Source of the DNA: a virus
Virus record (IMG/VR): IMGVR_UViG_3300017987_005478
Span: 1 to 64,000 of that record
Length of the DNA: 64,000 nt
Reading direction: 5' to 3' (one strand)
This document shows positions 47,421 through 61,883 of the stretch, one piece after another. The notes beneath the pieces were generated by a model, which did no database searches, was not told the origin of the DNA, and saw only the letters and a program-made list of their open reading frames with translations. Both the position numbers and the translations under genes were made by a program. Numbering within the stretch: position 1 is the stretch's first letter; each line of letters starts with the position of its first letter.

Positions 47421-47937
47421 CTAAATTCTCCTTGTGTTTTTGTATAATCGCATCAAACACATTTTCAGGGACAAACTTTTTAACCATATCTTCCCAACCA
47501 TTCGGACCAACCAAGTCTTTTACTGTACTTGAACTAATGTCAATCAGAGAATGTGGCGGGATGAGAAACACAGTAGTGATACCCGGATTCATCCCGCCAT
47601 TTATCTGACGCATTGTTGATTCGTAATTATAATCTTTTATAGACCTGATTCCTCTCAGAAGATAATTCGCTTTTTGTGCTTGTGCGAAGTGAATAAGATA
47701 TTCATTCCCAAGTAACATCGTGGTCACATTTGGGAATATGCTTGTAATTTCCGTTACCATTCTCAACCGTTCAATGTTGTTGAAATATGGTGTTTTTGAT
47801 GGGTTTGTTCCAATAGCAACGATGAGTTTTTCAAATAATTTAGACCCCTGAGAGATCATCCAAAGATGACCTTCAGTTGGTGGATCAAAACTACCTGGAT
47901 ATATCGCTATCTGTGGATGAGGGTATGTTTCGTTCAT
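47320..47937 (-). CDS. coaD: pantetheine-phosphate adenylyltransferase-like protein (CoaD)
   Basis: A 205-aa product behind AGGAG. YPGSFDPPTEGH with T21-x-G23-H24 is the nucleotidyltransferase signature; GTNPSK, ANYLLRGIRSIKDYNYE and FLIPPHSLIDISSSTVKDLV match CoaD in order. The usual Arg after ISSS/T is Lys here. The last 45 residues are a charged extension absent from cellular CoaD. The enzyme makes dephospho-CoA; why a phage carries it is unclear. It overlaps the RNAP beta stop by 47 bases. Confidence 0.85.
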   Translation of the reverse strand: MNETYPHPQIAIYPGSFDPPTEGHLWMISQGSKLFEKLIVAIGTNPSKTPYFNNIERLRMVTEITSIFPNVTTMLLGNEYLIHFAQAQKANYLLRGIRSIKDYNYESTMRQINGGMNPGITTVFLIPPHSLIDISSSTVKDLVGPNGWEDMVKKFVPENVFDAIIQKHKENLDVRKKLRPIKGGQPLFFKPSGHSDDKTEDKETD

Positions 47938-50900
47938 TTGGATTCACTCCTATTGTAAGTAAATATGCTTCTAGTAATTTCACAGATTCTGCAACCATCG
48001 ACTCATCATTACCATCTTCCTTAACCAAGTCTGTCTCAATTGTATTACGAAGGAACTTATTTTTCAGATCTATACAATCTGATTTGGTTGTCAAGAATTC
48101 AGAGATGTTGTATGGAGCATCATGTCCAATAAGACAAGCTGTTTCCATTTCTCCAAGTCTTTGACCGCCCTTATTTTTTCTTCCCGCTAATGGTTGCAAT
48201 GTTCTTCTTGCATATGAACCAATACCTCTTGCTGCTAATCTGGATTCAGCAATATGGACCATTCTGAAGAAGTACATATAACCAACCGCAATTGGATTGA
48301 CCAAATGCTGACCAGAGACAGGATCAAACACTTTCTGCTCAAATTTTGTATTTGTATACTCCAAGACTTTTTCAAGAATTGTCGCCGTTACAGATGAGAA
48401 AGGTGGCTGTATTAATGTAAGTTCGTTTATGAACTTTTCATCAATTATATCAGGGAGTTGTTCAAAGAACTGATATGTATACCATTTTGTCTCGGTATTA
48501 TCAACCAATTCAAAGAAACCTGCAAGATATCTTTTGAGTTGAGCCTGTCCTTTCTTGTTAGCAATCATCTCCAACAAATTCTTTTTAAGGTCTTCAAGCG
48601 CTAGACTAAGATGTAATTCAAACAACTGCCCGATATTCATCCTGCTAATAATTCCCAATGGATTTATACATATATCTACGTGTCGTCCATCCTCAAGTTG
48701 AGGCATCATTTCATGTGGAACGATGGTTGAGATAACTCCCTTATTCCCATGACGATTTCCGACCTTATCTCCAACTTGTATTTTGCGAGTGTATAAACCA
48801 AACATCTCGACTTGGATACCATTGATCTTTTCTTTCTTCGCTTTGTATTTTCTCGTGTAACTACTCTTATCGAGTCCGTTATCACGAATGAACCGGGTGG
48901 CATCTTCTTTCGACAGATGCTCTTTAATAATTCCCTGTAACTCTTTTTCTCGTTGGACTTGAGATTCTATTTTTGCTTCAACCCAATCTTTAAATTCTGG
49001 AATATCCTCATTCCATTGGTTCGCATAAATATTTACTTCGCTAATTACAACAGACTTCTTTGTCGTCAGCGGGATGGGTTCTTCAAATATAGAGCAGAAA
49101 TCAGTCGGTCCACCTGGGACCTTCTTCATAATTGCATATGGTTCACCAACTGCAATTTTGTCAAATACATCTGGAAGAGGCTTGTAGTTATTTTCCTCAA
49201 GACTGAGCAAGACTTTATCCGGTGTTAGTGTAAAGGAGAAGTCCCGATAATGGACTGAGGTAAACAATCCTTCATTCACAAGTCTGTCAGAAATAACAAT
49301 ACCATCCTCATAGTTATAACCGTAGTAGACCATCACAGCAGTTAGCAAATTCTTCCCAATATTGATATTACCTTGGGTGCAATAATTACTTTCTGCTAAG
49401 ATATCCCCTGCCTTAACTTTATCACCCTGTTTGACATATACATTAATTAAATCCATATTTTCAACATAGATTTTTCGATATCCAATGTTAAATACATCGA
49501 CTGTATTATCAACATATGCAACAATCAGATACTTGTCATCAATGAATACAACTTCGCCATTTTTCTTGGCTCGTTTTACAAACTGGGTATGATCTGTGTA
49601 TAAACCTTCACAACCAGATCCAATCATTGGTGTATCAAACTTCTTCAACAAGATAGCCTGACGCATCTGAGATGATGCCATTTGGAGTCGAGTTTGGTCA
49701 TCGTGCTCCAGAAATGGAACCATTGATACCGGAATAGATATTGGAGATTTTTCTAATGCCTCATCTGTAAATCTGAGATTCTCATCGAGTTTTGTGTTGA
49801 CTAACATATTCTGCAAAACTCCACAATTATCTCGGTCAGGTGTATCAACAGGACACATACGACCAAACATTGTGTCGCTTAGATCCCTAAGATGCTCTGG
49901 AACATTCTCTCTTTTAAATCCACCAGGACCAACCAAACTGGTTCTTGACAGCTTGGTTAACTCTTCAATCGGGTTAATCGAAAAGTCAAATTGCACAATG
50001 TCAGAAACATTACACTCTGTCAAGATTTTTGTCGAATTCACATTGAATTTGGCGTTTCTTGTTGTTCTATGCGCAAGGCATAGATCAAATACAGCCTTGG
50101 AGACTTTCGATGTGATGATATATTCAAAACATCTAACTCTCTTATTTTGAAAATCTGTATCATCATAATTTGGATCTTGCATCACATCCACAAACTCTTC
50201 AATAACCGAATCCGTCTTAAAGAATTTAGCAGATAATGGATCTACTTTCAACATAAGGTCAAGAGCATACATCAACGATTCACCCTTCGCTTTGAAATTA
50301 TACTTAGAGTAAATCCTTCCAATTTCTCGCAGGATATCGTTTTCGCTAAAGTCCTCATCTGTTGCATCATACATCTCTTTTAAATCATACAACATTTTAC
50401 CGTAAATTGTATCCTTGTCTGGATTAAGAGTATCAAAATCAAATCTCTCGTTTAGGGCTTCAGGTCCATACTTTGCAAACATAATCATACAGAATGGAAC
50501 TCTTTTGCCCAATACACTCAGATACACATACGGTGGTTCTTTATTTTCGAACAACATCATTGTGGCAACATTTGTCCGTATCTTGATAGCTTTACCTCTA
50601 GTCACAACTGGAATATCAAATAGCTGAAACAGAGGAATCTTCTTTCTGCCATTAATAACCAAATAGTTATCATCAATGAGCTTTGGAATTTGCATTGAGA
50701 GGTCTATGTTTGACGTTCCTCTTGTCAGTTTAATTACAAGATTTCTCCGGAGAGTTTGATGTAACTCCCCGGATGCCATCTTAGAATCTTTAATTCCAAA
50801 ATCTGAAATCTCAAAACCAATTTCTGTAACTGGTTGAAGAATTTCGTTAATTGTCTTTTCTAACTGTCCATACTCAGTTTGTCGAATCTGAAAGATATTA

Positions 50901-50941
50901 CTTTCTTCATCAACCTTGAACATAGGATTGACAAATTTCAA
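47891..50941 (-). CDS. DNA-directed RNA polymerase beta subunit, unsplit
   Basis: 1016 aa, against 1342 in E. coli; large insertions are missing but all core blocks are present in one chain: MCPVDTPDRDNCGVLQN, LLTAVMVYYGYNYEDGIVIS, KVGNRHGNKGVISTIVPHEM (about 722-741), MNIGQLFELHLSLA, KNKGGQRLGEMETACLIGHD. In phiKZ-type phages beta is split into two genes; here it is whole. With beta-prime it should form a virus-specific polymerase that reads phage promoters. Confidence 0.95.
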   Translation of the reverse strand: MKFVNPMFKVDEESNIFQIRQTEYGQLEKTINEILQPVTEIGFEISDFGIKDSKMASGELHQTLRRNLVIKLTRGTSNIDLSMQIPKLIDDNYLVINGRKKIPLFQLFDIPVVTRGKAIKIRTNVATMMLFENKEPPYVYLSVLGKRVPFCMIMFAKYGPEALNERFDFDTLNPDKDTIYGKMLYDLKEMYDATDEDFSENDILREIGRIYSKYNFKAKGESLMYALDLMLKVDPLSAKFFKTDSVIEEFVDVMQDPNYDDTDFQNKRVRCFEYIITSKVSKAVFDLCLAHRTTRNAKFNVNSTKILTECNVSDIVQFDFSINPIEELTKLSRTSLVGPGGFKRENVPEHLRDLSDTMFGRMCPVDTPDRDNCGVLQNMLVNTKLDENLRFTDEALEKSPISIPVSMVPFLEHDDQTRLQMASSQMRQAILLKKFDTPMIGSGCEGLYTDHTQFVKRAKKNGEVVFIDDKYLIVAYVDNTVDVFNIGYRKIYVENMDLINVYVKQGDKVKAGDILAESNYCTQGNINIGKNLLTAVMVYYGYNYEDGIVISDRLVNEGLFTSVHYRDFSFTLTPDKVLLSLEENNYKPLPDVFDKIAVGEPYAIMKKVPGGPTDFCSIFEEPIPLTTKKSVVISEVNIYANQWNEDIPEFKDWVEAKIESQVQREKELQGIIKEHLSKEDATRFIRDNGLDKSSYTRKYKAKKEKINGIQVEMFGLYTRKIQVGDKVGNRHGNKGVISTIVPHEMMPQLEDGRHVDICINPLGIISRMNIGQLFELHLSLALEDLKKNLLEMIANKKGQAQLKRYLAGFFELVDNTETKWYTYQFFEQLPDIIDEKFINELTLIQPPFSSVTATILEKVLEYTNTKFEQKVFDPVSGQHLVNPIAVGYMYFFRMVHIAESRLAARGIGSYARRTLQPLAGRKNKGGQRLGEMETACLIGHDAPYNISEFLTTKSDCIDLKNKFLRNTIETDLVKEDGNDESMVAESVKLLEAYLLTIGVNPNERNIPSSTDSDISR

Positions 50942-51172: not shown

Positions 51173-51404
51173 GAAACCTCCTATCTACACCCTCACCAAT
51201 TTTCTTAGCGGCGCTTATCAAAGCTTGATCTCTTAAATCACCCAAATACCCACCACTAATTTTCCTCAGAACCCGGCGATCAGTGCATACGTCTTGATTC
51301 TTGCGCATAAATACACAGATTGCCTTTCTTACTCGCAGTCGATCTTTTCGTATCTGTTCCAAATGGTCTAACGCCACTTGTAGTTCTGTTGTGTCGTGTA
51401 TCAT
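51162..51404 (-). CDS. hypothetical 80-aa basic helical protein
   Basis: The start overlaps the beta-prime stop (ATGA), with GGGGAG upstream. Helical and basic (VALDHLEQIRKDRLRVRKAI). Placed between the two polymerase genes; could be a polymerase-associated factor, but no resemblance to omega was found. Confidence 0.6.
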   Translation of the reverse strand: MIHDTTELQVALDHLEQIRKDRLRVRKAICVFMRKNQDVCTDRRVLRKISGGYLGDLRDQALISAAKKIGEGVDRRFHET

Positions 51405-54109
51405 TGTATTCTCTCCCCTTTTAGTATCGTATCCATAACACCTGTATAATGACCACTATACAAGATGCCTTTAAGAATACTTCTCTTTGGGTTTGAGAAT
51501 GCCAACGCCAATAACCAACTTTCATATGATGGGACTGTTTGAACAGAATGGAATTCAGGTGTGTATCTGTCTCGATTGTGGTGAAGACGCCATTTGGTAT
51601 AACCAAACCACATCAACTGGGCAACCACACATTCAAAATGAACATGGTGTATGGATCTGCTATTATTGTAAACTTCATATAGCTTATGGACAAGAGTAAT
51701 ATACGTCTCACCCCTAAATTGATGAAGAAGTTTAGAAGCTACAGATAAATCATTAACAATATCCATTTGCTTCATATCGTCATCTTGGTGCATATCCTTG
51801 ATAACAGCAACCCCACTCGTGTGGAAGGTTCTCAATACCAACTGTGTATTTGTTTCTCCCATAGATTGAGCTGCAATAACACCCACAAATCTACTGTCAA
51901 TCGACTTGTATAATTCACCATAACATTTACAACAGACTCCAGGATTATTACAGAATATAGGACTTCTTACCTGGATTGTTTCACCCTCAATCTCTCCATA
52001 ATTTTTCTCGGTGATAAGTTTCAAACCATTCTTATCTTTCATCCATTTACCGACTAACATCTTTGCTTTCTTCCTGTCAGATACAAACACGTCGAGAAAG
52101 TCTTCCGTGCCACAATCATCAACAGATGTGTCAAGAATCAAATTAGCACAAGCAAAGATTAACTTTCTAGAAAGATAACCTGATGACCCTGTATTAAGAG
52201 CAACGTCCAGAAGCCCTTTTCTACTTCCATATGTTGAATCAAAGAACTCCTTTTGTGTCAACCCGTTGAGAAAACTATGTTTTATCGGGTGTGGAATAAT
52301 TTGACCCTTGAAGTTCGAGATAAATCCTCGAGTTAACACTATTTGTCTTACCTGATCCCAAGAACCCCTTGCTCCAGATTCAATCATATATGAGTAAGAG
52401 AAGTTGTCTTCCAAGAAACGTTCTGTTTCTCTACTAGAAACATTATTTAACTGCTCCCTGATATCTTCATCCTCACCATATAGAGAACCTTGTAATTCAT
52501 TGGCTCCTACAACCCGAGAAGCTTTCAATGACATAGAAGCTCCATATAACGTACTGTATTTAAACCCTAATCTTTTAATTGCATCCAGAGTTACAGTCAT
52601 AACTTCATAGGGATACTCGCGTTTGATTTGATTGAGTATTGCCCCAAGCTGCTTTTTGCCGACAACAGTATTTACAACAGGATAAGTTTCGGGAAGACAT
52701 TCATTAAACATTATTCTTCCCTTCGTAAGGGTTTCACCCTTGTATTCTTGTTGCTCTAATAATTCTGGAAATTGGTCTTTTGTAAGCATGTAGAGTCCAA
52801 GAATAATATCTTGACTCGGTGTTGTTGTAAGACTTTCATTTGCTGGATTTGTGAAATTTCTGGTAATAAGGAACTTGTCAAGCACTTCGTCTTTCGTCTT
52901 TCTTGAGATTGGGATATACACTGCCATTTGATCCCCATCAAAATCTGCGTTAAATGGGGGACAGGCTAACGGGTGAATCTTGATAACATTATCAAGAGAC
53001 ACCTTAACTTTAAATCCCAACATACTTAATCGGTGTAAGGATGGTTGTCTGTTTAATAGACAGACCTCTCCTTTAACCAAATTTTCACAGAGACTAAACA
53101 ATATTGGTATTTGATATTCGATGCAATTGTCGACAAAGTCAATCCCTTGATTTAGGGTTTTAAACTTACCAACTTCAATAAGTTTCTTTGCAATTTTGAG
53201 TTTGAATAACTCAAGAACCATTAAATATGGAAGTACACATTCTTCCAAGTTAATAGTTGGATCAGGAATAATCACTGCACGTCCAGAAAAATCAATTCTC
53301 TTACCGAGTATATTACCTCGAATCAACCCTTCTTTCTTTGACATCTTTTCAACGATGTGACTATACAAATCGTTGACATCCTTTTGTAGTTGTTTAAAGT
53401 AACTATAGAAGAGTTCTTTGTTTCTAAGAATATCAACCATCGTCTCTTCCATAGTTTCTTTCTTGTTGAGAATCTGGTTATAGAAACGATTAATCTTATC
53501 TACAACCTGACTATTCCTCTCAACGCCCTTTGCCGCTGGTCTGAGATCTGGAGGCAGCACGATAATTTCACGCAAGAACATCTTGTGGACATTATCTTGT
53601 ATTTTTCGCCACTCATCCATTTCATCAGCAAGTTTATCAGCCAACCCTTCGACTAACTCTTGAATGGCTTCCAATCTTTCCCATTTGTCCGAAACATTTT
53701 CTGGTAAATGGTCTTCGGTGGTCACAACATATTCATCGCCGTCCATATACATTACTGCATCTTCTTTTTTCAGAAGCGTGTCGACAGCGCCCTTGATGTC
53801 CTTACCACCCACATCTATCAGGAGATCATAAAATACTGGATTCATGACTTGAATGGGTAAAACAATTTTTGCAAACCTTCTTCGTCTTTCATCACTATTA
53901 ACAATGTCAACACCGCAGTCTCCACATGTGCCACCAGCTTTTGAAATTCCAAAATACGTTCCGCATTGACAGGTATAGTTCTTTAAGGGTCCAAAGATCT
54001 GCTCCGAGAACAGTCCATATTCATGGAAGTGTTTCTTATCCATGATTTTTGAGGATTTGACTTCGGGTAATTCCTCACAAAATCGTGCGTAGTCCAGAAG
54101 ACCTGGCAT
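51401..54109 (-). CDS. DNA-directed RNA polymerase beta-prime subunit, unsplit
   Basis: 902 aa in one chain. CQCGTYFG...GTCGDCG zinc site near residue 48, GKRIDFSGRAVIIPDP, LLNRQPSLHRLSMLGFKV, the catalytic NADFDGDQM at 387-395, MIESGARGSWDQVRQI, STYGSRKGLLDVALNTGSSG, second zinc site with CCKCYG, GVIAAQSMGETNTQLVLRTF in the trigger-loop region, and a recognisable C-terminus (SWLLALAFSNPKRSILKGIL). Much shorter than E. coli beta-prime (1407) through loss of insertions. All active-site residues are present. Confidence 0.95.
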   Translation of the reverse strand: MPGLLDYARFCEELPEVKSSKIMDKKHFHEYGLFSEQIFGPLKNYTCQCGTYFGISKAGGTCGDCGVDIVNSDERRRRFAKIVLPIQVMNPVFYDLLIDVGGKDIKGAVDTLLKKEDAVMYMDGDEYVVTTEDHLPENVSDKWERLEAIQELVEGLADKLADEMDEWRKIQDNVHKMFLREIIVLPPDLRPAAKGVERNSQVVDKINRFYNQILNKKETMEETMVDILRNKELFYSYFKQLQKDVNDLYSHIVEKMSKKEGLIRGNILGKRIDFSGRAVIIPDPTINLEECVLPYLMVLELFKLKIAKKLIEVGKFKTLNQGIDFVDNCIEYQIPILFSLCENLVKGEVCLLNRQPSLHRLSMLGFKVKVSLDNVIKIHPLACPPFNADFDGDQMAVYIPISRKTKDEVLDKFLITRNFTNPANESLTTTPSQDIILGLYMLTKDQFPELLEQQEYKGETLTKGRIMFNECLPETYPVVNTVVGKKQLGAILNQIKREYPYEVMTVTLDAIKRLGFKYSTLYGASMSLKASRVVGANELQGSLYGEDEDIREQLNNVSSRETERFLEDNFSYSYMIESGARGSWDQVRQIVLTRGFISNFKGQIIPHPIKHSFLNGLTQKEFFDSTYGSRKGLLDVALNTGSSGYLSRKLIFACANLILDTSVDDCGTEDFLDVFVSDRKKAKMLVGKWMKDKNGLKLITEKNYGEIEGETIQVRSPIFCNNPGVCCKCYGELYKSIDSRFVGVIAAQSMGETNTQLVLRTFHTSGVAVIKDMHQDDDMKQMDIVNDLSVASKLLHQFRGETYITLVHKLYEVYNNSRSIHHVHFECVVAQLMWFGYTKWRLHHNRDRYTPEFHSVQTVPSYESWLLALAFSNPKRSILKGILYSGHYTGVMDTILKGERIQ

Positions 54110-54112
54110 AAG

Positions 54113-54382
54113 CTAATCCTCCTCTTTAAATGTCTTGTTGATACTGTCAGCTAGGAACAACAGATGTTCCTTTACTTTTCTTGAAATAAGCTCGTCCAAA
54201 TCCGGAATCACTTCGGCTGCAATAGCCTTGATGTCCTTCTTGGTCAACTCCATCTTCTTTTTCTTGACTATCTTTTCTATGAATTCAGTGGCTTGTTTTT
54301 CTAAAGCCTCAAGACCACCGAGCAATTCAAATATTGCCGGATATTGTTCTTCAGGAGTCTTCTCCTTGCTCTTTTTGGTCAT
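54113..54382 (-). CDS. hypothetical 89-aa charged helical protein
   Basis: Behind AAGGAG. Lys/Glu-rich, with EKIVKKKKMELTKKDIKAIA and a C-terminal amphipathic helix. Overlaps the 54351 gene by 32 bases. No family. Confidence 0.6.
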   Translation of the reverse strand: MTKKSKEKTPEEQYPAIFELLGGLEALEKQATEFIEKIVKKKKMELTKKDIKAIAAEVIPDLDELISRKVKEHLLFLADSINKTFKEED

Positions 54383-54599
54383 TCGATTTCTCCTTTGACA
54401 ACTTGTCTACAATTTTTTCTTTCTTATCTTTCCAGGCTGTAGTCAAGCCATTTTTTGCTACTTCAATTAACACATTTACTGCTTTGACCCCACTCTCTTT
54501 TAAAGGTTCTTCAACTTTTTCTAGAAGTTCAAGAGCAACAGGAGCCAACCCTTTACCGATTTTTTCACAAGCTTCTTTGCTGGATTTCTTAATATCCAT
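54351..54599 (-). CDS. hypothetical 82-aa charged helical protein
   Basis: Behind AGGAGGG. Lys/Glu/Ala helix (KKSSKEACEKIGKGLAPVAL) with an acidic tail. Length and composition are like the next gene. It lies directly after the small E2-like gene. Confidence 0.6.
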   Translation of the reverse strand: MDIKKSSKEACEKIGKGLAPVALELLEKVEEPLKESGVKAVNVLIEVAKNGLTTAWKDKKEKIVDKLSKEKSNDQKEQGEDS

Positions 54600-54610
54600 G
54601 CATAACCCTC

Positions 54611-54934
54611 CTATTCATAGGTGAATTCGTGCCAGGGTTGAAAGTAACTGTCATCGAGGTTAAAAGTTTGTAATAGATTCGCTACAGTTGGTATTATGGT
54701 TTCATCCGATTTTTTGAACTTTAGATCTTTTGGAAGACAAAGTTCTCCAGACGTTGGATGACAGTTTGGATGTACCCCATTAATAACAACCCTCTTAAGC
54801 AAATCACTATCTGTAAAGTGTAAAGTGAACCCATGAAATACAAATTTATCTACTATGTCTGTAATGGGTCTCACTTCTCCTTTAAAGATAAGTTTCGTCG
54901 GAACTATTTCCATCTTAACGGGGACCCTTATCAT
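54611..54934 (-). CDS. E2-like (ubiquitin-conjugating-fold) protein, 107 aa
   Basis: The start MIRVPVKMEIVP follows AGGAGG by ten bases. After a strand-rich first half, GVHPNCHPTSGELCLP gives H55-P56-N57 and, eight residues on, C66-L67. This agrees with the ubiquitin-conjugating enzyme active-site signature (HPN, x4-5, G-x-[LIV]-C-L) except for Cys58 in place of a hydrophobic residue. C66 would carry the thioester. It is shorter than eukaryotic E2 proteins (about 150 aa), lacking C-terminal helices. It follows the second E1-like gene by 23 bases. The E2 call is by motif and context; the protein fold should be tested. Confidence 0.6.
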   Translation of the reverse strand: MIRVPVKMEIVPTKLIFKGEVRPITDIVDKFVFHGFTLHFTDSDLLKRVVINGVHPNCHPTSGELCLPKDLKFKKSDETIIPTVANLLQTFNLDDSYFQPWHEFTYE

Positions 54935-54957
54935 TTCGTGTTCTCCTCCTACCTTTC

Positions 54958-55833
54958 CTACGCCGCACCTGTCTCGGCAATTAACTCTACGAAGTGACAC
55001 CCGTTATGACAACCAGGTGACACGATATAACTATTGAATACAAAGGGTAAGTCTAGTGAGGAAATTAGACAGGCTATCGCATCGTTAGAATCTCGAATTG
55101 AGCCTGCTGGTATTTTTCTTTTGACAATTGGATATTCTCTACTTCCAACGAAGATGAATACTGGATGATTTTGGTTCATATCCCTTATTTTTGGTAGGTT
55201 TTCGTATAGGTTTGTTAATTTCCTTTCTCCCTCATGCGGCTCCAATATTTCGTCTGGTTTCCTTCTAACCAACGCCATGGACTCCGCAATGTCTCTATTT
55301 AGATAATCCAACTCGATTTTATGTATGAGTTGTTTGTCTATGATTTCTTGTAGCAATCCCTTTTGTACCAATACTGCTGCGCTAAAGGCTGCTACTCGCA
55401 AATCCGTTTTCGATAAACGATGTAGATATCGACCCTGATGGTTTGACGCATATTCAACATCATGTCTTCCATCTACGATTAAATAACGAGATGACATATA
55501 CATTCGAACATGAATACTACCCTTTCGATCATATACATAATCTCTGCAATCAATCACCAAATCACATTCGGGTATTGGTGTTTTACCTTCGATAAATTTC
55601 TCATTTATTGCTGTCAGTATAACATCTTCTCTTCGCTGCCCAATCGAGCAGCAAAGAGCTTCAGTCTTTTGCTGACCTATATCTCCCGTTCGAAAACAGG
55701 AGTTTCTAAGGTTCTTTTTCTCAACCTTATCATGATCAATAAGCACTAAATCCTTGATTTCATCAAGTTCAGAGAGACTTTGTGCTAAATGACTACCCAG
55801 ACTACCACAGCCTACTATTGCAACTTTCTCCAC
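54958..55833 (-). CDS. E1/ThiF-like adenylating enzyme B
   Basis: It starts at GTG 55833 behind GGAGG. In the 291-aa product, VGCGSLGSH (7-15) is the ATP-binding loop; LVLIDHD with D33 and D35, then N41-L42-R43 follow as in ThiF/MoeB/E1 proteins, but the usual RQ pair reads RN. DLVIDCRDY occupies the DN..D position. No zinc CxxC pairs. The C-terminal half (EYPIVKRKIPAGSIRDSNDA and on) is unusual. It is probably paired with the small E2-like gene immediately downstream. Confidence 0.78.
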   Translation of the reverse strand: MEKVAIVGCGSLGSHLAQSLSELDEIKDLVLIDHDKVEKKNLRNSCFRTGDIGQQKTEALCCSIGQRREDVILTAINEKFIEGKTPIPECDLVIDCRDYVYDRKGSIHVRMYMSSRYLIVDGRHDVEYASNHQGRYLHRLSKTDLRVAAFSAAVLVQKGLLQEIIDKQLIHKIELDYLNRDIAESMALVRRKPDEILEPHEGERKLTNLYENLPKIRDMNQNHPVFIFVGSREYPIVKRKIPAGSIRDSNDAIACLISSLDLPFVFNSYIVSPGCHNGCHFVELIAETGAA

Positions 55834-55908
55834 GGGTATCCTCCATTGTTTCTCTCTCGACCTATAAGGTTTGTTATTTGTTCTTTATAAATGAATTTGT
55901 TTCACAAA

Positions 55909-56520
55909 TCAAGCGATTTCTGAAAATGTTCTGTGAATCTTTTCTCGCCTTAATTTAACAGTTTTCCCACTACGTCTGTACTTTTCAACCAATTCTAATA
56001 TTTCGTTATGAAACGAAGCCTGGTCTTCAGTATTTATTTGAACTGTATATTTTCTATAGGGTATTTGCGCTGTCTGTACTTCTGACAACTTTCCCATTTC
56101 TTTCATCATTTCAGCAATCTCAATGATTGTCTCGTATAATTGTACTACCTCTCTAACAAAACTTTCTGCTCTCCCATAAACCTCAAGGGAGATATTCTTA
56201 ATTGGGTGATGAAACAGATTGGGACTTCCGACTTTGTCGTAAAGTAATTGTAGGTTGCATGCTAGTTTCGTAGCAACCACTTCGTAAGATATCACATCTG
56301 GAATGTCGTTTAGAATATCTGTAAGAACTGCAAGGATTTGAAATATATCATCCTTATTCAATCTTTCTGCGACCTTACGAACGCTTTCTTCATGTAATTT
56401 GTTTACTTCGTCAAGATTAATTTTGTAGGCTTTTACTTTCTCACCTTCTTGATTTTCAAGTACATAGTAGTCGGGATGTTCTTCCACGGCTTTAACCATA
56501 TCGCCTTGATATATTGGCAT
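55909..56520 (-). CDS. hypothetical 203-aa protein inside the ubiquitin-like cassette
   Basis: Behind AAGGAGG. N-terminal 40 residues form a small beta unit (MPIYQGDMVKAVEEHPDYYV), the middle is all-helical (ILAVLTDILNDIPDVISYEV, SFVREVVQLYETIIEIAEMM), and the C-terminus is basic. No family. Its place between the ubiquitin-like and the E1-like B genes makes it a candidate accessory factor or substrate adaptor. Confidence 0.6.
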   Translation of the reverse strand: MPIYQGDMVKAVEEHPDYYVLENQEGEKVKAYKINLDEVNKLHEESVRKVAERLNKDDIFQILAVLTDILNDIPDVISYEVVATKLACNLQLLYDKVGSPNLFHHPIKNISLEVYGRAESFVREVVQLYETIIEIAEMMKEMGKLSEVQTAQIPYRKYTVQINTEDQASFHNEILELVEKYRRSGKTVKLRREKIHRTFSEIA

Positions 56521-56536
56521 GACATCCTCCTTGTTT

Positions 56537-56576
56537 GAAGGAGTAGCCCGACTACTAGTACCCGAGCTACTCCTTC
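56537..56576 (-). terminator. 11-bp hairpin after the SAP-Ubl gene
   Basis: GAAGGAGTAGC pairs with GCTACTCCTTC around an 18-base loop, starting ten bases after the SAP-Ubl stop. No U-run. It may terminate partly, protect the 3' end of the upstream mRNA, or be a processing site. Confidence 0.55.
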
Positions 56577-56585
56577 GCTCAGATA

Positions 56586-57062
56586 CTAGCCTTTACGGCC
56601 TGCTGGTTTCAAGAACTCCAAATCATCCCCTTCTTTGAGGACGTAGCTTCCGTCAACCTTGTCGCCGTTCACAATACCTTCATCGAGGCGGCCTACATTG
56701 AGAACCTCCCTCAAGAATTCACCAACGGCACCAACAGTCTTTCCTGCAACCGGAAACTTACCAGAATTGGCTCCGCAAGAGACACTGATGGCTGTCGTAC
56801 ACCTATCCCCAAATTTCTTTTCGGGATTGGTCATGACGCTGGACATTTTGAAGTCAGCCTTTGTGACTTTTTCCACACCGGCAGTCTTTCTCAGTTTCGC
56901 CATGTGACCTGTGGACTTTGCTCTGGCAGTGACCTTGTTGGCCTTCAGAATGGCATCAATGATAATGTCCTTGCGCTTCTTGCTCATTCCAGGTATGCTC
57001 TGGTCTCGACACATTTGGCGCAGTTCGGCTACTGTCTTCTCTTTCAATATTGCTCTCGTCAT
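56586..57062 (-). CDS. SAP-like motif fused to C-terminal ubiquitin-like domain
   Basis: A 158-aa product behind AAAGGAG. Residues 11-40 (VAELRQMCRDQSIPGMSKKR, then KDIIIDAIL) match the SAP helix-extended loop-helix that binds DNA. A basic linker follows. The last 65 residues look like a beta-grasp ubiquitin-like domain: SGKFPVAGKTVGAVGEFLRE, an NGDKVDGSYVLKEGDDLEFL end-strand, and a tail PAGRKG ending in glycine, like the GTKG end of PRTRC protein C. The gene is about 49% G+C, above the 30-38% of its neighbours, suggesting strong expression. It overlaps the E1-like A gene by 107 bases. A conjugated DNA-binding tag is the inferred role. Confidence 0.68.
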   Translation of the reverse strand: MTRAILKEKTVAELRQMCRDQSIPGMSKKRKDIIIDAILKANKVTARAKSTGHMAKLRKTAGVEKVTKADFKMSSVMTNPEKKFGDRCTTAISVSCGANSGKFPVAGKTVGAVGEFLREVLNVGRLDEGIVNGDKVDGSYVLKEGDDLEFLKPAGRKG

Positions 57063-57759
57063 TCGATCGATCTCCTTTTACTAAGGGTTTTCGGGTTTGA
57101 GATCTAACACTCATTGTTTGAATGTCAAAATAGATCTCAGCACAACTAGTTGGCTCTTTGCCATTTAAAACTACTGTGTAGAACGCCCAACACATGATTG
57201 TAGCTACCGAAAGGTTGGTAAACAGAAGCTGCGGCTCAGCCTCTGCCAATTCTTCACAGCCCATATCCTCAGGTGACCGGTCACCTGGGGTTGCTATTTC
57301 CGGGTGGTAGTCCGTCAGTGATGGTGATAAATTCACACCTCCCTTTCTCACATAAATTTGGACATTACCGTCGGTAAATTCATTACCGCCCGAAATGATT
57401 GTGACATCATCTAACCCTTCGGCGTGGTCAGATATCACTTTCCTTGTTTTGTGGTTATCGACACATACAAATACAACATCACCATTTTTGACAATTTGGG
57501 CGACATTTTCTGCATTGACATAAGAGTCTACATCTTCAATATAGATCTTATGATAATTCTCTTTCAAATCCTCAGATTTGATTTTCGCCTTATTACCAAA
57601 ATCAGTGAACACTTGTCTTTGCAAATTCTTGTGCTCGTAAGCATCCCCATCAACCAATGTAAGTTGAGGCGTTTCTACTGACGAGTAATTTAGAAACCTA
57701 CAAAGCGCTTCACAGAGGTAAGTGCCGACCCCACCCAGGCCAATAACCTTGATATTCAT
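56956..57759 (-). CDS. E1/ThiF-like adenylating enzyme A (PRTRC ThiF-like)
   Basis: A 267-aa product behind GGGAGG, ATGA overlap with the JAMM gene. G7-L-G-G-V-G12 nucleotide loop, LVDGD with D37 and D39, KNLQRQ with R48-Q49, and VCVDNHKTR: a canonical E1-fold active site. The later MGCEELAEAEPQLLFTNLSV resembles ThiF proteins of PRTRC cassettes. It should adenylate the C-terminal glycine of a ubiquitin-like partner, here the overlapping SAP-Ubl gene. The C-terminal 35 residues are charged and lie in the overlap. Confidence 0.85.
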   Translation of the reverse strand: MNIKVIGLGGVGTYLCEALCRFLNYSSVETPQLTLVDGDAYEHKNLQRQVFTDFGNKAKIKSEDLKENYHKIYIEDVDSYVNAENVAQIVKNGDVVFVCVDNHKTRKVISDHAEGLDDVTIISGGNEFTDGNVQIYVRKGGVNLSPSLTDYHPEIATPGDRSPEDMGCEELAEAEPQLLFTNLSVATIMCWAFYTVVLNGKEPTSCAEIYFDIQTMSVRSQTRKPLVKGDRSNDESNIEREDSSRTAPNVSRPEHTWNEQEAQGHYH

Positions 57760-58964
57760 CCGTGCCTCCCTTCTCCAAATCCTTCTTGGTCCAGGTGCTC
57801 GGGAACGTAATTGTGAATTGATTCCTCACCTGTGACAGTGAGGTCACCTGCGACATCCACAGACGCCCCATCCTCTTCCACAAACTCATAACCAAGAGAT
57901 TCAAGTTGGTCGTCATCAAGATCCAAGGCGTCAATCACTTCTTCCATAAGCATGTCAACCTTGTAATCCTTATATGGACATTGTTCACATGGATTCCATT
58001 CATCGTCATTTCCAAATTGACGATAGAGAATGTCGGTATATGAATCACCTTTTCCAGGTTCTGGAATCATCATTGAAGGGTCTGGTGGGTAAAACGAATT
58101 TCCAACCCCGTCAAATAGACCAGGTTGTTGTGTATCTCGTTGATGAAATCGTTGACCCCAATGACCGTAATGTCGACCCCATCTTCTAGAACCACGAACA
58201 GGCACTCCGGAGCCATGAACGACAACCCCTTCGTATACCTTTTTCGTTATTCCGTCCATCCATTTAGAGGGGAATCCGCTAGTGTTGGATGTAATTTTAT
58301 ATCCAAGGACCTCTTTCGGTTTTGGTATCGCTTTTCCCTGTGCTTGAAGTTGGTTGATATGAACTTCACCAAGCTGTTGCTCGTATGAATCCAACTCCAA
58401 ACCCTCTACATAATCTGTTGGATTTACTGGAAAACGAGTCCCATTTGCTACGATAGATGCAGCAACCGAGAATCTTGGTTTAAGATTGTCACCGATTGTG
58501 ATATGGAGACCATCCCATGTTGCTTCGTCATTTTGATCAGTCCCAGAATGAAATGCTGAGAAATTACAATGACTATGGATGGTTCCAAGCCTTACAAAGT
58601 CTTTATAACTCACCTCACTTTCATATTCTGTTCCAGCCGCTGAAACTTCCTGTTTTGGCACTTCGATGCGATACGTCTTTCTTTTCTGGTTATAATGAAT
58701 AATGACATTCGCTTCTCCATGATGTTGATTGTAAACAGCCGTGAAAAATCTCTGCACCTCAGCAAACAGTTTCGCCGGAATCTTTTTAATATCCATGCTC
58801 GCGTATGCGTCCATCTCATTGAGTATTCCTATACCATCAACTTTCGCCATACTTTCGAACATACCCATCTTCTTTTTCAGAAAAATGCCTTCTTTTGAGA
58901 TAATATACAAGATATCATCTGGCGGCATCTCTGTCTGCCCGTCATTAATCCAGACACTGAACAT
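57756..58964 (-). CDS. JAMM/JAB-domain isopeptidase-like protein (PRTRC-A-like)
   Basis: A 402-aa product behind AGGAGG. GTIHSHCNFSAFHSGTDQND carries H-x-H-x7-S-x2-D (residues about 129-142), the exact JAMM zinc motif, in a context (HSH...AFHSGTD) like PRTRC protein A. The upstream Glu may be in HHGEANVIIHYN. The second half (240-400) is Gly/Trp/Arg-rich, then acidic, with a CEQCPYKD Cys pair; it is not part of known JAB domains. JAMM enzymes remove or process ubiquitin-like proteins. 20-base overlap with the gene at 58945. Confidence 0.82.
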   Translation of the reverse strand: MFSVWINDGQTEMPPDDILYIISKEGIFLKKKMGMFESMAKVDGIGILNEMDAYASMDIKKIPAKLFAEVQRFFTAVYNQHHGEANVIIHYNQKRKTYRIEVPKQEVSAAGTEYESEVSYKDFVRLGTIHSHCNFSAFHSGTDQNDEATWDGLHITIGDNLKPRFSVAASIVANGTRFPVNPTDYVEGLELDSYEQQLGEVHINQLQAQGKAIPKPKEVLGYKITSNTSGFPSKWMDGITKKVYEGVVVHGSGVPVRGSRRWGRHYGHWGQRFHQRDTQQPGLFDGVGNSFYPPDPSMMIPEPGKGDSYTDILYRQFGNDDEWNPCEQCPYKDYKVDMLMEEVIDALDLDDDQLESLGYEFVEEDGASVDVAGDLTVTGEESIHNYVPEHLDQEGFGEGRHG

Positions 58965-61473
58965 AATCCCAATCCTCCCTGTAATTGAATTCTGCTGATG
59001 AATGTTCTGTAAACCCGTTTTGAAGATTTGAAAATCCCCACTTCTTATAACCTCGCATCATGTCAATTCTAGCGAGGGTATATCGAGGTGAGAGAAAACC
59101 AAACCTCTTCATGCTGTCCATGTAGTATGGTTCCATATTATTGGAATAACCATATCCCCACCGGTTGACCACATTCGTTAAAGCAAGTTTATTGTAATGA
59201 TATCGTCGATAGATCGCAACAAATATCCGTTTATGATCTCTATCTTGGATATAAGTATCACCACATTGGGGTTTGAGTTTGCTCAGCTGAATTGGAGCAT
59301 TCTTAAGTTTGTGCCACTTCGGATCTGTTATTTTATACACATCGAAGTTTACCAATGAGCTCGGACTCGCCCACTGTGTGCATAGATTCGAGCAGAGCAT
59401 CAATGGATAATGTCCTTCACCACAATCAGGCAAGAACCCAATAACTGTGTTAACATCTTTCTTTGGGAACATGTAAATACCAGCAGTCTTTGCCCTGATT
59501 TTATCACCAGATTTAATGCCTGCAAATTCTCGCATGATATGTCGAATTTTACCTGTCCAGATAAAACCATCAGCAAAGTCAATATACTCATCTCTTCTTT
59601 CGTTTCCTTGACCATCAACTGTTTTGACAGTGATTTTATTGTCGGAAACTAAGAATTGCTTGATGGTTCGAATCTTCAGCATTTCAACTGGGTCATCCCA
59701 ATCGGCTACAACTACTTCATCACCGACCTTAAAGTTAATATCAATGTCAAAACTGGGAATATTGATTTCTTTTCGATCTTCGGACAAGATAGACTTCTTG
59801 ACAACTTCAGAATCATAACGCCGATTGCTGACACCGCCAGAAGGAACCATAATTCCCTTTCCTCGTATTAACGGATATTGAGGTTTGTCTGTCTTTAGAT
59901 TTGAGTGTAACTTACAGAAGATCCTGTATGCTGGCGGGACAAACATATCCTTAACAGGAGCTATTGTATGACTATCTCCTGTGAGAGAAACTCGATGCGT
60001 ATCTGAGTGTCCTGTATCAACATCTTGAAACTTAGCCACCAGAGTTCCACGTTTATCATCAAAACCAACAAAGACGGCTTTATTACCATAACAGAATGGT
60101 CTTTCACGCCTTCCACTCGACCTGCTTAGTAGATACACTTCGTCATTTTTCCCAACTTCTACATCACCGATAGTTACCTTATTCTCATCAAAGATTTTGA
60201 ATTTGAGGTTTTCCAAAAGATAATAATCAGCTCGATTACACTGAGCTTCAATTTTTCCATCTCTCGCTTTCCTCAATTTTGTGATCTTACGATACGAATT
60301 TTCAGGATACGTTAAAATGATGATATCTCCAACGGCAACTGTCAACCCATTAATCTCTACAGATTTAAGCAACTTGTCTCCAAGCATCTGTTTTGAAAAA
60401 GATTTCTGTCTTGATGGTGTCAACTCAACTTCAACATCTTCTCCACCCTCTTCCGGTTCTAGCACTACAGAAGTTGGAGATTCAAACCGATTTCCAATAA
60501 AGGTTTTGACATAATGATTCTTTTTCTTGTATGTCACTTCGTCACCAACAGCCAGAACAGCACCACCATCCAAAGCAGTTGATTCCGTCACATTGATCAA
60601 GAGTCTTGAATTTTCTCTGATTTTTCTTCTGTTTGTGAAGACCCCTTTAAGAGAGTCAAAACAAAACATAGAATTACCCATACCTGATACCGCATAATGT
60701 TTCAATGTATGTTCAACAGCACCTCCAAGTGTATAATCCTCCTTCTTCCATTTAACCCCATAGATAAACATAGGGTCTTTCATGGAGTTATACTGCCAAG
60801 TAAGAAAGTCAGAGACTTCAGGCACTTTTGAGTAAGATTCATAGCGCTCCGAAAGATCTTTATTAAAGGAGTTGACCCAGAATCTTTCAATAACACCGCT
60901 TGCTTGATCAAAGATGCCTCGCTTCGGTGTTTTGTTTTCAAAATCTCCCAAACATAATGAACCATCTCCGCCAATATTTGGGAGATTTGGTCTGAGGAGA
61001 TAATCCTCCATACAAACTATCGGCTGTAATCGATAGTACGGTTTGGCGCACGACACACCACCTTTTGTCAGAAGGATAATATAGATAATGTAAGGAAAGG
61101 CTAGCTGCATCCGATATGGTTTACGATTGTGTTTCAACCACTCGTCATAACCATATTCTTCCAACTTGCCTGTAATTTTGAATTTCTCGATTGTTCCTTC
61201 TAAGTCCATGTCAACTGTAACATTCCTGAGTCGAGGTTCTTCCTCAATAATGACTAGTGCACTGTCGACACCAACTTGTTGTACAAATCTGGTGTTCTGA
61301 GGAAGGAACGTTCCGAGTTCTAGATTTGATTTGGATCCAAGTCGTTGATAAAAATCTGCAGTTGGTACCAACCTTTTACGTCGAAACGGAGTAAATGTTT
61401 CGTCGTCAGGTATGTCTTCACTACTGACTACCAAACTTGCGTATTCACGGTTTAACACAATCTCTTCCATCAT
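58945..61473 (-). CDS. large E2-like (Prok-E2_D/PRTRC-B-like) protein with long extension
   Basis: The start MMEEIVLNREYAS follows AAAGGAG; two ATGs are adjacent. Residues 110-190 contain AFPYIIYIILLTKGGVSCAK and RPNLPNIGGDGSLCLGDFEN, with C174 as the likely thioester Cys; LPN-x3-DG-x2-CLG is the hallmark of prokaryotic E2 family D. The remaining 650 residues have repeated small beta units (VGDEVTYKKKNHYVKTF, VAVGDIIILTYPENSY, VGKNDEVYLLSRS, VGDEVVVADWDDP) that look like SH3/KOW-type barrels, and an Arg/Tyr-rich C-terminus. PRTRC-B is far shorter, so this is an unusual extended form, perhaps a combined E2 and substrate or nucleic-acid binder. Confidence 0.65.
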   Translation of the reverse strand: MMEEIVLNREYASLVVSSEDIPDDETFTPFRRKRLVPTADFYQRLGSKSNLELGTFLPQNTRFVQQVGVDSALVIIEEEPRLRNVTVDMDLEGTIEKFKITGKLEEYGYDEWLKHNRKPYRMQLAFPYIIYIILLTKGGVSCAKPYYRLQPIVCMEDYLLRPNLPNIGGDGSLCLGDFENKTPKRGIFDQASGVIERFWVNSFNKDLSERYESYSKVPEVSDFLTWQYNSMKDPMFIYGVKWKKEDYTLGGAVEHTLKHYAVSGMGNSMFCFDSLKGVFTNRRKIRENSRLLINVTESTALDGGAVLAVGDEVTYKKKNHYVKTFIGNRFESPTSVVLEPEEGGEDVEVELTPSRQKSFSKQMLGDKLLKSVEINGLTVAVGDIIILTYPENSYRKITKLRKARDGKIEAQCNRADYYLLENLKFKIFDENKVTIGDVEVGKNDEVYLLSRSSGRRERPFCYGNKAVFVGFDDKRGTLVAKFQDVDTGHSDTHRVSLTGDSHTIAPVKDMFVPPAYRIFCKLHSNLKTDKPQYPLIRGKGIMVPSGGVSNRRYDSEVVKKSILSEDRKEINIPSFDIDINFKVGDEVVVADWDDPVEMLKIRTIKQFLVSDNKITVKTVDGQGNERRDEYIDFADGFIWTGKIRHIMREFAGIKSGDKIRAKTAGIYMFPKKDVNTVIGFLPDCGEGHYPLMLCSNLCTQWASPSSLVNFDVYKITDPKWHKLKNAPIQLSKLKPQCGDTYIQDRDHKRIFVAIYRRYHYNKLALTNVVNRWGYGYSNNMEPYYMDSMKRFGFLSPRYTLARIDMMRGYKKWGFSNLQNGFTEHSSAEFNYREDWDYVQCLD

Positions 61474-61493: not shown

Positions 61494-61883
61494 TCACTCA
61501 CCTCTAAGATACTTGAGTTTCTTCGCAAACTCAGTTACGATTTTTGCAGCTTTGCTTTGTTTCACTTCCCATGCCTTTATCCTTTTCAAAGGCGGTTGTC
61601 TGTCCTCAGGATTCATTCCTCGACCTACGAGCAAGCCACGTTTCTTCGCATAATGAGCCACAATGTATTTCTCTGGTTCCTCCCTTTCTAATGTCAGAAA
61701 GAATATTTCTTTTTGATCCTTTCCAATCTCCAGTGTTAAGAAGACATTTGGTCCATCGGGTCCACGATATGGTTGTTTTTCTTCTCCCCTTTCTTCATCC
61801 ATTATCTGATCACAAAGTTGTTTGACCTGTTCGTCAACATCACTACTTTCGATCTCAGACAACAGTGTGTCTAGAATTGGCAT
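61494..61883 (-). CDS. hypothetical 129-aa protein
   Basis: Starts at the second of two adjacent ATGs behind AAGGAGGTA. Acidic first third (SDVDEQVKQLCDQIMDEERG), then strands (VFLTLEIGKDQKEIFFLTLE) and a basic helix. First gene upstream of the ubiquitin-like cassette in the same run; not known to belong to it. Confidence 0.6.
   Translation of the reverse strand: MPILDTLLSEIESSDVDEQVKQLCDQIMDEERGEEKQPYRGPDGPNVFLTLEIGKDQKEIFFLTLEREEPEKYIVAHYAKKRGLLVGRGMNPEDRQPPLKRIKAWEVKQSKAAKIVTEFAKKLKYLRGE

Follow-up and report, generated by a model that had tools for sequence, protein, structure and literature searches.

Does a phage encode a ubiquitin-style protein-tagging pathway of its own? Until now, such systems have been described chiefly on bacterial plasmids and chromosomes and in defences against viruses. 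The question is raised by a 64,000-nucleotide stretch of viral DNA, positions 1 to 64,000 of the 127,917-base IMG/VR record IMGVR_UViG_3300017987_005478 (hereafter the window), which carries phage genes for a terminase, tail sheath, baseplate and tape measure. At 54611-61473, seven open reading frames (ORFs) form a minus-strand run that leads into the RNA polymerase (RNAP) beta' and beta genes. An initial annotation made from the sequence alone read this run as a PRTRC-like conjugation gene set with E1, E2, JAB protease and ubiquitin-like protein (Ubl) parts. Our analysis makes it probable that the cassette encodes a PRTRC-like pathway conjugating a phage Ubl to proteins, whichever these proteins are. 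All seven ORFs lie where the annotation had placed them, and its overlaps match exactly: 20 bases between E2D and JAB (58945-58964), four bases, ATGA, between JAB and E1a (57756-57759), and 107 bases between E1a and Ubl (56956-57062). The genes of the run are as follows.

58945..61473, minus strand: E2D, a large E2-like protein of 842 residues (850 from a GTG at 61497).
57756..58964, minus strand: JAB, a putative JAB/JAMM isopeptidase of 402 residues, PRTRC_A-like by its JAMM residues and hhalign.
56956..57759, minus strand: E1a, a canonical E1/ThiF protein with predicted catalytic Cys168, PRTRC_ThiF-like by its E1 site residues and hhalign.
56586..57062, minus strand: Ubl, a SAP/Rho_N-Ubl fusion recognized by profile matches and its AGRKG end.
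55909..56520, minus strand: Hel, a helical protein and optional member of the cassette.
54958..55833, minus strand: E1b, a degenerate E1 recognized by its fold model, PDB matches and TG(A/G)A end.
54611..54934, minus strand: E2b, a small E2-like protein with an HPN...[FL]C[LI] pattern, of 107 residues, or 129 from a GTG at 55000.

Scans of viral contigs for members of the JAB, E1a and beta' families yielded 28, 67 and 80 loci, respectively, and removal of near-duplicates left 69 contigs carrying both E1a and Ubl. JAB was found in 68 of these, E1b in 65, E2b in 61, E2D in 63 and beta' in 65. A single order and strand was observed in 57/57 loci having all seven anchor genes. Moreover, all six cassette genes lay upstream of beta' in 55 of 60 beta'-anchored loci (a set taken without de-duplication, with at least 8 kb of upstream sequence); the exceptions include L166, with no cassette gene, and L154, where E1b and E2b alone precede beta'. 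Conservation of gene order in relatives, one of the checks proposed with the initial annotation, was thus observed, and this recurrence across 69 contigs shows that the cassette is not a chance assembly. Hel is present in only 10 of the 60 beta'-anchored loci. The median gaps (-7 bases for E2D-JAB, -3 for JAB-E1a, 30 for E1a-Ubl and 0 for E1b-E2b) support an operon, in which E1b and E2b are tightly coupled. The cassette is under purifying selection: when the window is compared with its relative L005, the proteins are 53-85% identical, with non-synonymous divergence (dN) of 0.10-0.42 and synonymous divergence (dS) from 0.85 to saturation. A scan of genome contigs gave matches on contigs of metagenome-assembled genomes only, possibly phage sequence binned with cells, and for this reason it points to no reliable host.

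The predicted active sites of JAB and E1a are conserved. The JAMM motif of JAB (E84, H130-S-H132-x7-S140-x2-D143) is perfect, as first described, and its residues E84, H130, H132, S140 and D143 are invariant in 68/68 members. The window JAB matches the PRTRC_A profile at 1.8e-7 (31 bits, under the NCBIfam cutoff of 101.8), and the family aligns with PRTRC_A by hhalign at 7e-16; judged by these profiles, JAB is homologous to PRTRC_A, not an equivalog. The E1a protein likewise deserves the name of canonical ThiF/E1: it matches the ThiF family at 9e-20, and R48, Q49, K57, D101 and C168 are invariant in 69/69. E1a also matches PRTRC_ThiF (1.3e-11, under the curated cutoff; 2.6e-21 by hhalign).

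E2D had been proposed as an E2-D/PRTRC-B-like protein using C174, and family profiles agree. Its N-terminal ~260 residues form an E2/PRTRC_B-like domain with Cys174 (182 from the GTG); in GTG numbering, N174 is kept in 60/63 members and C182 in 61/63, the other two being gaps. By hhalign, the family aligns with PRTRC_B at 4.8e-6 and with the E2 of a second phage clade, described below as Arash-type, at 2.2e-8. Prok-E2_D is matched by 28/41 family members (best 1.2e-6; the window protein alone, 0.028). The ~580-residue C-terminal extension of E2D (58945-60690), kept throughout the clade, has no Pfam family match; KOW/SH3-type repeats suspected there by eye were rejected, being unsupported by any Pfam match.

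The candidate tag is a fusion of a SAP/Rho_N domain (residues 6-41; Rho_N, 1e-7) and a beta-grasp Ubl (about 84-158) ending in AGRKG, in agreement with the SAP-Ubl fusion with terminal Gly recognized earlier. Rho_N is matched by 51/67 members of the family. The beta-grasp fold expected for this product is likewise supported by member matches (E up to 0.1) to ThiS in 37/67 (best 3e-4) and to TGS in 45/67 (best 2e-4). K157-G158 is present in 69/69 tails and G155, hence G-x-K-G, in 64/69; in 25/69, residues follow GxKG, mostly a single Cys. Ends of the GKKGC or GRKGC type occur in many Ubls of L045-L136 (e.g. L050:10687-11145). In carrying one Cys beyond the conserved Gly, such Ubls are like some eukaryotic ubiquitin precursors.

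Other phages carry the Ubl in tandem. The gene gp199 of KLEB27-3 (L205:676-1425, OM634661) encodes four near-identical 56-residue Ubl units, each ending in GVKG, followed by an MPRIVVK tail; there are three units in Vibrio D69 and two each in L014 and L019. By analogy, this is the layout of a poly-ubiquitin precursor and would fit JAB as the processing enzyme. In its deposited record, from Bacillus phage vB_BauM_KLEB27-3, the poly-ubiquitin-like gp199 is annotated as hypothetical.

ThiF and ThiS profile matches of E1a and Ubl could also suggest sulfur-carrier chemistry, in which a ThiS/MoaD-type Ubl would be converted by E1a to a thiocarboxylate for nucleotide or cofactor modification, JAB acting as processing protease; indeed, JAB-ThiS-E1 sets are known in sulfur-assimilation contexts (PMC1779556). 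We regard this as highly unlikely: the operon encodes two E2-like proteins with an invariant Cys for which sulfur transfer would have no use, no gene for a sulfur donor or modifying enzyme was seen in the cassette, and the nearest profiles of JAB, E1 and E2, taken together, are those of PRTRC.

How close is the cassette to PRTRC? A 2006 study described bacterial JAB-E1-E2 operons carried by mobile elements (PMC1779556), and PRTRC is widely annotated on plasmids, where a PRTRC_B relative occurs in 308 records; we found no functional paper on PRTRC in the literature searched. The profile comparisons, in which decoys scored 0.2-0.7, support homology of the phage E2, JAB and E1 with PRTRC B, A and ThiF, so that the PRTRC-like gene set first proposed is upheld. 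Plasmids such as those of Cupriavidus taiwanensis (NZ_LT984809) and Aromatoleum (NC_006823) share with the window-type cassette these three homologues and the B-A-ThiF order, and PRTRC C, to which the phage tag is only weakly linked by profile, usually ends in GxKG like that tag: among five plasmid PRTRC_C tails, three (RAAGTKG, RAVGTKG and RAAGAKGADAQV) have GTKG or GAKG at or close to the end, and the other two read QTKGGRRK... and GDRG. In contrast to the plasmids, the phage cassette has its Ubl after ThiF and fused to Rho_N/SAP, an E2 with a ~580-residue extension and an extra E1b/E2b arm, and adjoins RNAP beta'. Since no NCBIfam match to the ParB-family protein or to proteins E and F was found among the cassette proteins, the cassette is not a PRTRC system by strict membership, while its core, as far as profiles tell, resembles one. 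Another plasmid relative outside classical PRTRC is possibly found on Metabacillus plasmid pB218 (L188:4396-4803), where a GGAKG-ending protein is encoded just before JAB and ThiF genes.

A second clade, comprising Salmonella phage Arash, Vibrio D69/D148/D181, Bacillus KLEB27-3 and many contigs, is closer to the plasmids in its organization: the order Ubl, larger protein, E2, JAB, E1, as read in Arash, D69 and KLEB27-3, is the plasmid PRTRC order C-F-B-A-ThiF. The Arash Ubl matches PRTRC_C at 7e-5, and no link of the 320-residue larger protein to PRTRC F could be detected (0.23). Arash-type cassettes share with the window type a phage Ubl, E2, JAB and E1 and the GxKG tail; they differ in placing the Ubl first, often as a tandem poly-Ubl, and in lacking the SAP domain and E1b/E2b. 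A third, core form, a short E2D-JAB-E1a-Ubl set, occurs in L086, L097 and L100, with no E1b/E2b beside it. In Arash (L002), the deposited gp251 frame misses an overlapping-frame ORF for a conserved Ubl ending in GTKG (102-320 versus 107-307). We also considered whether the enzymes enter the virion, as Arash E1 (Gp246), JAB (Gp247) and E2 (Gp248) were detected by mass spectrometry of purified particles (PMC10585845). This list was set aside and not used as evidence: it names 116 proteins, many of them enzymes, gives very high coverage on the strength of 2-5 unique peptides, and comes with its authors' own caution that carry-over may have occurred (PMC10585845).

The window type adds a second arm, initially described as a second E1-like and a second E2-like protein. 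For the former, the family stands and a full active site does not. E1b matches the ThiF family at 1.7e-16 and keeps the glycine loop, D33 and K56; its Arg-Gln pair is replaced, by N44/S45 in most members, and no Cys aligns with the catalytic Cys of E1a. In the predicted structure (predicted local distance difference test, pLDDT, 94), the E1 core matches MccB, Cap2, ThiF and UBA5 in the PDB and is followed by a C-terminal beta-beta-alpha-beta-beta domain and a flexible TG(A/G)A end (G289 in 60/65, A291 in 63/65). Pfam, PDB profile and profile-profile searches gave no sequence match of this domain to Ubl, and hence it is the predicted topology that suggests a second Ubl on E1b.

E2b probably starts at 54934, a Met common to L005, rather than at the GTG at 55000. 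In its family of 61, H is found in 61/61, P in 0.95, N in 0.97 and Cys in 61/61, and the HPN...C pattern occurs in 106/129 E2b-family ORFs, against 2 of the 16,977 remaining ORFs in these loci. Its core is predicted with pLDDT 93-97. Single-sequence searches of the PDB and Pfam gave no match, nor did a comparison with predicted viral structures; the family profile aligned weakly with three E2s (E 0.2-1.4). E1b might serve as a regulatory E1 subunit and E2b as a second E2, or the two might form a second pathway. They could instead be structural pseudoenzymes in an operon with one active arm, an explanation that we hold plausible, short of an even chance: E1b has neither the RQ pair nor the catalytic Cys, and the E2b of a divergent relative, L008, appears to have no Cys, against which the Cys of E2b in 61/61 and its near-invariant HPN would argue for E2b catalysis.

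The resemblance of E1b to Cap2 E1 domains, in both sequence and fold, also invites a role in counter-defence. Host Bil and CBASS systems employ E1, E2 and JAB proteins, and the phage might compete with or reverse such tagging, for example with JAB stripping host Ubl from virions or with E1/E2 decoys. Cap2 itself is discussed in PMC12355090. Bil and CBASS Cap2/Cap3 share the E1/E2/JAB chemistry with the phage cassette, and the Cap2 E1 domain its fold with E1b; unlike the cassette, they are host defences, and Cap2 is an E2-E1 fusion acting on the C-terminus of a CD-NTase. We consider counter-defence quite unlikely: the cassette has its own conserved Ubl with an invariant K-G end, PADLOC matched E1 domains only and not JAB, the E2s or Ubl, and the genes are kept in 55/60 beta' loci of close relatives, while counter-defence genes are usually patchy.

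Protein conjugation is the preferred reading because the predicted active sites of E1a, JAB and both E2s and the tail of the Ubl are invariant across 61-69 divergent contigs, profiles link the core to PRTRC, three of the five plasmid PRTRC_C tails share GxKG, the tandem Ubls have a precursor layout, the genes form an operon under purifying selection, and most tags carry Rho_N. The gene set, its conservation and its invariant active sites are observed; from these, the following steps may be proposed. JAB would cleave the Ubl precursor after G-x-K-G. E1a, whose E1 site is complete, would then adenylate the terminal Gly and load the Ubl onto Cys168, from which it would be handed to the predicted catalytic Cys of E2D, perhaps also to E2b, and finally to a substrate lysine. 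The SAP/Rho_N part of the tag would provide the modified protein with a nucleic-acid-binding handle, and JAB would later take the tag off. In the added coupled arm, E1b would probably be a non-catalytic partner or the bearer of its own tag-like C-terminus, and E2b a second Cys-active E2.

Several observations weigh against this proposal or parts of it. The profile links of the window-type Ubl are weak (PRTRC_C, 0.008; Arash Ubl, 0.012). For the fold predicted around C66 of E2b (C88 from the GTG), human E2s are the top-probability PDB matches and HPN...C is present, yet the match is non-significant (probability 0.60, E 0.42, template-modelling score 0.40); because of these E-values, it is mainly the motif that argues for E2b as an E2. 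The L008 E2b, moreover, appears to have lost its Cys. Finally, the neighbourhood is not universal: no RNAP beta' was found in L086, L097 and L100, contigs that may be incomplete, and the Arash-type clade lacks the adjacency. The cassette is distant from RNAP in Arash and D69; in Arash it lies at 176-180 kb, more than 40 kb from RNAP beta at 131-133 kb. A place beside RNAP is thus kept in window-type relatives and not in the second clade.

What would the tag act on? The initial annotation suggested the transcription machinery of host or virus, or virion proteins, as possible targets. Because the Ubl carries a SAP/Rho_N domain, it would bring its target to nucleic acid, and its most likely targets are proteins that handle DNA or RNA in the infected cell, the phage's own RNA polymerase being one possibility. 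Since adjacency fails in the Arash-type clade and in the three core-cassette contigs without beta', RNAP need not be the substrate; gene position makes it a candidate, and we would give the transcription complex only a minor share of the likelihood. Equally tentative is a broader picture for large RNAP-bearing phages: a core two-arm pathway whose SAP/Rho_N tag would tether proteins of viral transcription or replication to DNA or RNA, and whose second arm would pair an E1 bearing a Ubl-like domain of its own (TGAA end) with a classical HPN-Cys E2. The Ubl might otherwise be put on proteins of the host or of competing phages to alter or inactivate them, a role in line with the occurrence of PRTRC and other E1/E2/JAB relatives on mobile elements (PMC1779556). 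This differs from the preferred reading in substrate, not in chemistry; the fixed position next to RNAP genes of the phage itself suits a core replicative role, and we think this alternative rather unlikely.

Parts of such systems have been seen in phages before. Ubl and JAB domains of phage tail-assembly proteins were described in 2006 (PMC1779556); TAPI-TAPK of lambda and T1 resemble the cassette in these domains and differ in being tail assembly genes without E1 or E2 (PMC1779556). The literature searched, in which preprints and most subscription journals were not included, yielded no account of a phage E1-E2-JAB-Ubl cassette, and priority is uncertain. What appears new from the comparisons is the phage-wide occurrence, the full cassette conserved beside RNAP, the SAP-bearing tag and the added E1b/E2b arm. 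If the proposal is right, the range of ubiquitin-style tagging, complete with tag, E1, E2 and protease, would extend to phages, where it would be conserved and probably a core function, with poly-ubiquitin-like precursors and a protein tag bearing a nucleic-acid-binding domain. The uncharacterised PRTRC systems would gain tractable models in named phages (Arash, KLEB27-3, the Vibrio D phages), and there would be a new place to seek the roots of the ubiquitin pathway and its diversity.

Downstream of the cassette, the window holds the following genes.

54351..54599, minus strand: s1, a small charged ORF between the cassette and beta'.
54113..54382, minus strand: s2, a small ORF between the cassette and beta'.
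51401..54109, minus strand: RNA polymerase beta' subunit, the conserved downstream neighbour, tied to the cassette by position only.
47891..50941, minus strand: RNA polymerase beta subunit, a downstream neighbour.

The record contains two RNAP beta' genes, 33% identical, at 51401-54109 of the window and at G000:C1:85919-88168. The pair calls to mind phages with distinct polymerases inside and outside the virion, and the cassette adjoins only one of the two genes.

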